Below, in pieces: positions 28,949 through 30,805 of a stretch of DNA of 34,296 nt; the first letter of the stretch is position 1; each line of letters opens with the position of its first letter. The stretch is from an uncultured Oscillospiraceae bacterium. Its GTDB lineage: Bacteria > Bacillota > Clostridia > Oscillospirales > Oscillospiraceae. The DNA lies in the NCBI GenBank assembly GCA_947624585.1, contig CANQKZ010000015.1:1-34296 (forward strand). The letters are read 5' to 3'. Position numbers and translations under genes: made by a program. The notes under the pieces are model-generated. The model worked only from the letters and a program-made list of their open reading frames with translations. It searched no databases and was not told the origin of the DNA.

Positions 28949-28977
28949 TTGACAAAATTCGACCCATACCTTATAAT
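28949..28977 (+). promoter_or_regulatory. perfect-consensus promoter driving the small hydrophobic peptide locus
   Basis: TTGACA - exactly 17 bp - TATAAT. Confidence 0.85.
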
Positions 28978-28983
28978 TGGGGC

Positions 28984-29135
28984 ATGGGCCTTGCATTATG
29001 CAAGTGTGCCGCTTTCGCGGCATGGAGATCGACGTTCCAGCTTACGGAACGGTTAAAAGGACGGTGCCTGATTTCCGCGAGAGCGGGAAGGAGGCGTGCA
29101 TCAGCTCCCGCGGGAAATACTCCCGAAAGGAGGCT
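28984..29135 (+). ncRNA. structured 5' leader of the small peptide transcript
   Basis: Serial hairpins: CTTGCA-TTA-TGCAAG, TGCCGC-TTTC-GCGGCA, GTTCC-AGCTTAC-GGAAC, TTCCGC-GAGA-GCGGGAA, CGGGA-AATAC-TCCCG; AGCTCC (29103-29108) can pair with the SD-containing GGAGGCT (29129-29135). Confidence 0.55.
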
Positions 29136-29241
29136 GGTACATATCACTTGGACCACTGTGCTGAGTCTGGTGGGCTTCATCGGCTCCCTGGCCAGTATCA
29201 TCTCTCTTGTGTTGTATTTTTACGACAGAAGAAAAAAGTGA
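29134..29241 (+). CDS. small hydrophobic single-TM peptide, type I toxin-like (start codon unclear)
   Basis: After AAAGGAGG: (LV)HITWTTVLSLVGFIGSLASIISLVLYFYDRRKK, ~20-aa hydrophobic helix with basic C-terminal tail; stop TGA 29239-29241. No ATG/GTG/TTG at normal SD spacing. Confidence 0.5.
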   Translation: MVHITWTTVLSLVGFIGSLASIISLVLYFYDRRKK

Positions 29242-29267
29242 GCCGTCTGCCAAATCAGACGGCTCAC
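29232..29267 (-). terminator. intrinsic terminator, perfect 12-bp stem, canonical for the minus-strand RNA
   Basis: GTGAGCCGTCTG-ATTTGG-CAGACGGCTCAC-TTTTTTC on the minus strand. Confidence 0.88.
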
Positions 29268-29338
29268 TGTGGATTTGGGCCTGCGAACCCGATCCACTAA
29301 ATTAGAGCTATTAACTGTGGCACCGTTCCGGTCTCCAC
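29232..29338 (-). ncRNA. candidate antisense/antitoxin RNA convergent with the small peptide gene
   Basis: Minus-strand promoter TTGACA (29368-29373) - 17 bp - TATACT (29345-29350); predicted start ~29338; ends at intrinsic terminator 29238-29267 with T6. Confidence 0.6.
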
Positions 29339-29344
29339 CCTTAC

Positions 29345-29373
29345 AGTATAACTTCTTCTCTCAAATTTGTCAA
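29345..29373 (-). promoter_or_regulatory. near-consensus promoter for the antisense RNA
   Basis: TTGACA-N17-TATACT on the minus strand. Confidence 0.75.
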
Positions 29374-29419
29374 TACCGTATTTTCCTCCGCAGTCCCAGG
29401 GACGGCGGAGATTATTGTT

Positions 29420-30805
29420 TCACGCTTCCTCCACGTCCTCCGCCTTCGCCACCTGCATCATGACGGCGCACTCCATGCGTTTGCGGAAAAGCTCGCAGCC
29501 GTACTCGTAGACGCCGCGAATGGAGCCGGAGGCGTGGTAGGCGTTGGCGGCGCAGCCGCCGGAGCAGTAGAGGCGGGCCCAGCAGCCATCGCACTCATGG
29601 CGGGCGTAGACGTTGCACTGCTTGAACTCGTCCCGCAGGGCCGTGTTGGTGACGCCGTCCCAGATGTTGCCCATCAGATACCGCTCGTCGCCCACGAACT
29701 GGTGGCAGGGGTACAGGTCGCCCCAGGGGGTCACGGCCATGTACTCGGTGCCGGAGCCGCAGCCGGAGATGCGCTTGTAGATGCACGGCCCGTGCCGGAG
29801 GTCGATCATGTAGTGGTAGAAGGTGATGGGCCGCCCCTCCTTTTCGCGTTTCAGCATCTCGCGAGCCAGGATCTCGTATTGCTCGAAGAGCACCGGCAGG
29901 TCCTCCTTTGTCAGGGCGCAGGAGTCGTCGGGGGCGCAGACCACCGGCTCCATGGAAAGCTCCGTGAAGCCCAGGTCCGCCAGGGCGAAGAGGTCCTTCG
30001 TGAAGTCGGTGTTGTAGTGGGTGTAGGTGCCCCGGACGTAGTAGCTCCGGTCCCCTCGGGCCTTGGCAAATTTCTGGAATTTGGGGACGATCTTCTCCCA
30101 GCTCCCCTTCCCCGCCAGGTCCACCCGGAAGCGGTCGTGGGTCTCCCGCCGTCCGTCGATGGACATGACCACGTTGTGCATCTCCCGGTTGGAAAATTCG
30201 ATCACGTCGTCGTCCACCAGAACGCCGTTGGTGGTCAGGGTAAAGCGGAATTTCTTGTGGGCGGGCCCTTCGATGCTTCTGGCGTAGGCCACCAGGTCCT
30301 TCACCACCTGCCAGTTCATCAGCGGCTCGCCGCCGAAGAAGTCCACCTCCAGGTTGGTGCGCCCGCCGGAGTTCTCCACCAGGAAATCCAGGGCCCGCTT
30401 GCCCACCTCAAAGCTCATCAGCGCCCGCTCCCCGCGGTACTTGCCCTGGGAGGCGAAGCAGTAGGAGCAGTTCAGGTTGCAGGTGTGGGCCACGTGGAGG
30501 CACAGGGCCTTCACCTCATTGGAGCGCTTCTTGAAGTCGAAGGCCATTCCGGCGTAGGTGTCCTCGGAGAAGAGCTTCCCCGCGTCCTTCAGCGATTCGA
30601 TGTCCGCGAGGCACTCCCGCAGATCCTCCTCCGTCACGTCGGGCCGGTCGCCGTATTTTTCCAGCATCGCCGCCACGATCTCGTCGCCGGAGTGTGTCCC
30701 GAACATGGCGATCATGTCGTAGGCCACCTCGTCCACCGCGTGGACGGAGCCGGAATTTACGTCCAGGACGATGTTGTATCCGTTCAATTTGTACTGATGT
30801 ATCAT
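29420..30805 (-). CDS. thioether cross-link-forming SCIFF peptide maturase (radical SAM, SPASM)
   Basis: ALCLHVAHTCNLNCSYCFASQGKY (CxxxCxxC), FFGGEPLMNW, C-terminal CDGCWARLYCSGGCAANAYH auxiliary-cluster Cys; adjacent SCIFF peptide. Confidence 0.95.
   Translation of the reverse strand: MIHQYKLNGYNIVLDVNSGSVHAVDEVAYDMIAMFGTHSGDEIVAAMLEKYGDRPDVTEEDLRECLADIESLKDAGKLFSEDTYAGMAFDFKKRSNEVKALCLHVAHTCNLNCSYCFASQGKYRGERALMSFEVGKRALDFLVENSGGRTNLEVDFFGGEPLMNWQVVKDLVAYARSIEGPAHKKFRFTLTTNGVLVDDDVIEFSNREMHNVVMSIDGRRETHDRFRVDLAGKGSWEKIVPKFQKFAKARGDRSYYVRGTYTHYNTDFTKDLFALADLGFTELSMEPVVCAPDDSCALTKEDLPVLFEQYEILAREMLKREKEGRPITFYHYMIDLRHGPCIYKRISGCGSGTEYMAVTPWGDLYPCHQFVGDERYLMGNIWDGVTNTALRDEFKQCNVYARHECDGCWARLYCSGGCAANAYHASGSIRGVYEYGCELFRKRMECAVMMQVAKAEDVEEA

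Follow-up and report, generated by a model that had tools for sequence, protein, structure and literature searches.

A probable type I toxin-antitoxin family of Clostridia with a predicted locked mRNA and an apparent near-cognate start codon

What is encoded in the short interval that separates two minus-strand genes, hflX and that of the SCIFF peptide maturase, in a contig of an uncultured Oscillospiraceae bacterium? Within the window, by which we mean the whole 34,296-nucleotide stretch of DNA that was analysed, an initial annotation had described this interval (28949-29373) as a compact locus resembling a type I toxin-antitoxin (TA) system, and a gene check bore out both of the neighbours that it named. 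Here, we use the computed architecture, conservation, purifying selection, leader covariation and start-codon pattern of the locus and its relatives to argue that it is very probably a type I TA locus of an undescribed family, combining a predicted locked mRNA with an apparent near-cognate start. As read from sequence, the whole locus spans ~460 bases and would comprise the gene for a tiny membrane peptide together with an antisense RNA by which that gene is probably silenced.

The locus is framed by convergent promoters, both present as first claimed: TTGACA-N17-TATAAT on the plus strand (28949-28977, consensus score 12/12), which would drive the toxin mRNA, and TTGACA-N17-TATACT on the minus strand (29345-29373, 11/12), which would drive the antisense RNA. 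A 3-kb stretch contained four promoter-like sites, where shuffled sequence would be expected to hold 0.5, and the architecture is far beyond chance because the whole arrangement recurs in 60 distinct loci, where promoters scoring at least 11/12 were found on the plus strand in 57, on the minus strand in 50 and on both in 47. The putative antisense (antitoxin) RNA, ~110 nt long, occupies 29227-29338 on the minus strand with a predicted transcription start, and is captured by a covariance model termed R1. Its 5' hairpin (29317-29339, minus) reads GGCACCG...TCTCCA on the plus strand, the 3' UTR segment that pairs with the leader of the mRNA; a middle hairpin, GGGTTCGCAGGCCC (29277-29290, minus), follows, and then an intrinsic terminator (29237-29268, minus) in which the stem precedes TTTTTTCTTCT and overlaps the TGA stop codon of the peptide (29239-29241). 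The stem is perfect, as had been reported, although it has 13 bp instead of 12. It had also been read as a hairpin common to both RNAs, a view we abandon, as its U-tract lies on the minus strand only and it would terminate the antisense RNA only. The plus transcript therefore probably continues across the antisense gene as far as a possible terminator (29386-29411), a tentative assignment beyond the antisense -35 box in which the stem CTCCGC...GCGGAG is followed by a T-rich tract (29386-29420 in all, plus strand); a strict search returned a comparable toxin-mRNA terminator in 16 of the 60 loci, the window locus not being among them.

Across the family the antisense RNA keeps its 5' hairpin, its middle hairpin and its terminator, the stem of which is almost invariant. 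Its linker, by contrast, is hypervariable, and this is what specificity of each antisense RNA for its own mRNA would lead one to expect. There are also apparent solo antitoxin copies, that is, antisense genes with no adjoining toxin ORF (L020, 1501-1564, and a second unit in L017/L022), and near position 1501 of L014/L041 (G024) an isolated GAGCCGCCGGC terminator with a Lys-rich tract resembles the family's terminator part only.

How far does the arrangement extend beyond this genome? Of 60 genomes searched at the DNA level, 14 have related loci: that of the window and 13 others, all in the same genus. The window's own genome has six matches and one genome has ten, some of these being parts of one locus. 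Searches with two covariance models, R1 for the antisense RNA and R2 for the leader, gave matches in other genera and other families of the order, in 7 of 340 other genomes when the class was searched, and in a single genome from a different class of the phylum, which carries a distant copy (L153); the leader, for which a covariance search across Clostridia had been proposed, does have relatives across the class. A pattern scan of named species genomes in GTDB returned 28 stretches, mostly from metagenome-assembled genomes (MAGs) of Oscillospiraceae and other Clostridia; one of the 28, in a proteobacterial MAG (L144), was set aside as chance. Two viral contigs match the family, one of them (L151), a prophage-like contig, with an intact copy and with genes that, named by eye from their sequences, are antirepressor-like and small-terminase-like; the plasmid and phage collections held no record matching the family. 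The peptide is under purifying selection, with pN/pS of 0.27-0.29 in four subgroups (0.29 in that of the window peptide) and an excess of third-position changes. The peptide and the antisense promoter, on whose conservation the initial annotation had staked its reading, are both kept across Clostridia, and the conservation of a type I TA-like architecture across this class is supported by these comparisons.

The leader of the toxin mRNA (28984-29133, plus; model R2), beginning at a predicted transcription start at ~28984, is structured. The pairs of its hairpin P2 (29075-29113, arms 29075-29084 and 29104-29113) covary in the family, with 95% of cells paired, 13 two-sided changes and none of 500 shuffles equally high. 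An alternative hairpin, P1, is conserved yet shows no covariation in the family alignment, and a bistable switch is therefore not claimed. In six leader copies (L017, L022, L023, L053, L085 and L086) a MITE-like insertion of ~110-130 bp (GGGGTCCCCGCAAAAT...ATTTTGTGGGG...GCGACGACG) takes the place of the P2 5' arm. Further downstream, the Shine-Dalgarno (SD) sequence AAAGGAGG (29126-29133, within an element at 29120-29133, plus) is predicted to be partly occluded by a CTCC just upstream, with an unpaired probability of 0.34 in the window locus and 0.22 as the family mean. This occlusion comes from a local hairpin and is the same when the 3' UTR is removed, so that the folds attribute no effect on the SD to any longer-range pairing.

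Such longer-range pairing is nonetheless predicted. The leader and the 5' element of the antisense RNA are alike, forming an inverted repeat in the DNA, and the mRNA leader can therefore pair with its own 3' UTR. The 5' half of this fold-back (29023-29068, plus) consists of TGGAGA (29023-29028) and ACGGTGCC (29061-29068), both complementary to the 3' UTR, and folds of full-length mRNAs predict the pairing in most loci, with 18 expected pairs in the window locus and 13.7 as the family mean. In an extraction of which 17 rows were placed by hand, cognate leader and 3' UTR pairs match at 15.5 of 17 positions, whereas permuted pairs match at 13.5; the cognate value was reached in none of 5000 permutations, which ignore relatedness; by class, the test is significant in two of three, the exception being the short class of six rows. 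When partners are ranked by raw duplex energy the cognate 3' UTR seldom comes first, its median rank being 15 of 52, and this ranking is confounded by base composition; the residual version, in which row and column effects are removed, corrects for this and gives the cognate partner an advantage of 2.8 kcal/mol, matched in 0 of 5000 permutations (sd 0.62). In the distant copy L153 both arms are altered together, GCAGGGAAA with UUUCCCUGC. The common motif might instead reflect the same 5' hairpin serving stability or protein binding in both RNAs, or homogenisation of the two arms, with no folding back of the mRNA, and it is true that the antisense motif folds as a hairpin of its own and that template switching can make inverted arms alike. 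We nevertheless regard this as rather doubtful, since in the leader the motif is interrupted by an inserted hairpin and has no CCAC partner, and since the non-identical cells hold 44 G.U against 10 A.C combinations, as RNA pairing predicts, in a hand count that includes related loci repeatedly. The toxin mRNA is thus predicted to fold back, leader on 3' UTR, following the logic of hok and AapA.

Where does the peptide begin? A strong SD followed by a hydrophobic peptide of ~34 codons had been proposed; the SD, the frame and the basic tail hold up, but the toxin-like ORF (29143-29241, plus), (I/fM)TWTTVLSLVGFIGSLASIISLVLYFYDRRKK, has 32 codons when read from ATC, at a spacing of 9 from the SD. 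The window peptide is hydrophobic, with a single predicted helix and a basic tail. Following AAAGGAGG, the hydrophobic frame in the window reads CTG GTA CAT ATC ACT TGG, with no ATG, GTG or TTG near the SD, and the CAT ahead of the ATC is probably not coding. In a tally counted by hand from 58 distinct ORFs, 40 have an in-frame ATA, ATC or ATT (ATH) that lies 6-9 nt downstream of the SD core (seven of these with a shorter SD, AAAGGA, and a spacing of 8 from that core), 11 have ATG, GTG or TTG at 7-8, three have TTG at 10-11, and four are disrupted or unclear (L039, L082, L104, L116). Loci of the ATG and ATA types align at the start codon (GATAC-ATG-AAC-ACT-TTG with GATAC-ATA-GTC-ACT-TTG) and, the unclear loci aside, this position holds only known initiation codons and never other hydrophobic codons, which argues that it is the true start. 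Judged from their sequences, most family members thus appear to use AUC, AUA or AUU, and not AUG, as the first codon of the peptide. In two loci, L038 and L113, the toxin ORF is broken soon after ATA GTC ACT, with a similar inserted segment in both.

A canonical start at another position, either an upstream CTG, GTG or ATG overlapping the SD or a later TTG or GTG, with the ATH then an ordinary internal isoleucine, is unlikely. Such codons do occur: in six of the 40 ATH loci an in-frame ATG is fused to the SD, right after AAAGG, in some a GTG or CTG lies within the SD or immediately 3' of it, and in many a TTG stands two codons further on. None of them is conserved, however, the close relative L010 having AAG in place of the fused ATG; L034 has an in-frame TGA just upstream of its ATA and an ORF with no ATG, GTG, TTG or CTG at all, L035, L148 and L081 have none before codon 19, and L037 has only CTG. 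The codons at the ATH site are almost exclusively ATA, ATC, ATT, ATG, GTG or TTG, and the preceding codon (CAT, CAA, TAC or AAC) is not kept as an amino acid. The classic bacterial cases of AUA/AUC/AUU-type initiation are infC and pcnB. A search of the openly readable literature found no report of such starts in type I toxins, and in some type I toxins a non-canonical start codon is known to lower translation (PMC8167048).

Is the family one that already has a name? Initially said to have no obvious match to a nameable family and possibly to be new, the peptide indeed has no curated family above cut-off in Pfam, NCBIfam, PHROGs, PADLOC or the PDB. For the window peptide itself there is no Pfam match, and NCBIfam up to E 10 gives only LPXTG-like noise, these LPXTG-anchor matches looking compositional; an Fst/Ldr homology test by the same profile searches had the same outcome, and the Pfam and NCBIfam matches of 35 members include no Hok-type family. 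Rfam, searched at the gathering cut-off for the window and up to E 1 for eight loci, gave no match on the TA RNAs. Its only matches above cut-off are neighbouring RNAs, a drum RNA (RF02958, 88.7 bits) at 1315-1425 of L034 and a skipping-rope RNA (RF02924, 41.7 bits) at 1279-1363 of L074, each near a TA copy.

TxpA/RatA and BsrG/SR4 of Bacillus subtilis and par/Fst of Enterococcus faecalis have convergent promoters, a 3' overlap and a small membrane peptide, as here. The match to these systems first proposed survives as a convergent type I architecture, whereas membership is not demonstrable: profile searches of Pfam and NCBIfam give no toxin match, the direct DNA repeats of Fst, which make its RNAs complementary, contrast with an inverted repeat here, which makes the RNA 5' ends similar, and the U-tract on one strand only differs from a bidirectional terminator. 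The Hol_Tox family (PF16935) and the PHROG 920 holin likewise comprise short one-helix peptides with a basic tail, to which a few distant members of the present family are weakly similar; membership of Hol_Tox was rejected, the score being 13.5 bits against a cut-off of 23.3 and the window peptide having no match. Because these tested features fail, we do not place the locus in par/Fst or Hol_Tox, nor do we claim membership of the hok, AapA, TxpA or BsrG families. As in hok/sok and aapA/IsoA, the putative toxin is small and hydrophobic, there is a cis antisense RNA, there are several paralogues per genome, and the leader is predicted here to pair with the 3' end and the SD to be hidden (PMC8167048, PMC6733600); LDI-locked mRNAs are used by some type I toxins (PMC8167048). 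In contrast to those systems, the antisense RNA here spans the stop codon and 3' UTR, its 5' end repeats a leader segment instead of being complementary to the leader, the start appears to be near-cognate, and no peptide similarity was found, as judged from Pfam and NCBIfam profiles. The type I systems of Clostridioides difficile (CD2517.1-RCd8, CD0956.2-RCd10 and others) share the convergent overlapping genes, and their toxins have 34-53 aa, a hydrophobic N-terminus and a Lys-rich tail, some being encoded on prophages (PMC6563280, PMC7699646). Their ATG stands 7-8 nt after AGGAGG (PMC7699646), the same geometry as here, yet the described C. difficile toxins use ATG where the new family appears mostly to use ATH, and C. 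difficile is not listed among the GTDB species that the pattern scan with the leader returned.

TA behaviour would fit the presence of several copies in a genome, some of them solo or degenerate, and of one on a prophage-like contig. That the peptide is instead an antisense-regulated small membrane protein under the same RNA logic, for example a membrane-stress or holin-like regulator, seems quite improbable, for although one subgroup resembles the phage holin profile phrog_920 (E 1e-4) and toxicity is here a prediction from sequence, the multi-copy paralogues, solo antisense genes, degraded copies, layered repression, hydrophobic core and +3 tail typify type I toxins.

From this we infer transcription, fold-back function, antitoxin action, toxicity and a membrane target, as follows for a type I TA system. 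The strong plus-strand promoter would yield a toxin mRNA of ~430 nt with its leader paired to its own 3' UTR, its SD held in a small hairpin, and initiation further dependent on a near-cognate AUC (AUA or AUU in relatives). The strong opposing promoter would yield an antisense RNA of ~110 nt whose complementarity to the mRNA is complete and takes in the stop codon and 3' UTR. When abundant, this RNA would pair as a duplex with the 3' end of the mRNA and so lead to removal or silencing of the mRNA, whose translation would until then be restricted by the fold-back, the hairpin at the SD and the weak start. Were the antisense RNA lost, the 32-residue, single-helix, basic-tailed peptide would build up, act at the membrane and disturb it. 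An evenly balanced proposal is that selection has conserved the near-cognate AUH start as a throttle on toxin synthesis, one that may be linked to IF3 or stress and that works with the leader fold-back and with a leader-mimicking antisense RNA that competes for the same 3' segment.

The new elements are an apparent near-cognate start at the normal distance from an SD, and a leader whose complementarity to the 3' UTR of the same mRNA covaries between cognate partners, in a family that is apparently undescribed. Type I TA loci are difficult to detect by homology, and a homology search cited in a review found almost none in Clostridia (PMC6563280). The present family is multi-copy in gut Oscillospiraceae, where gene callers would miss most members because these have no AUG, GUG or UUG start. 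Its AUG-bearing homologues permit direct comparison with AUH members and, if confirmed, it would offer a natural and recurrent instance of bacterial AUA/AUC/AUU initiation in which weak initiation has an obvious purpose.
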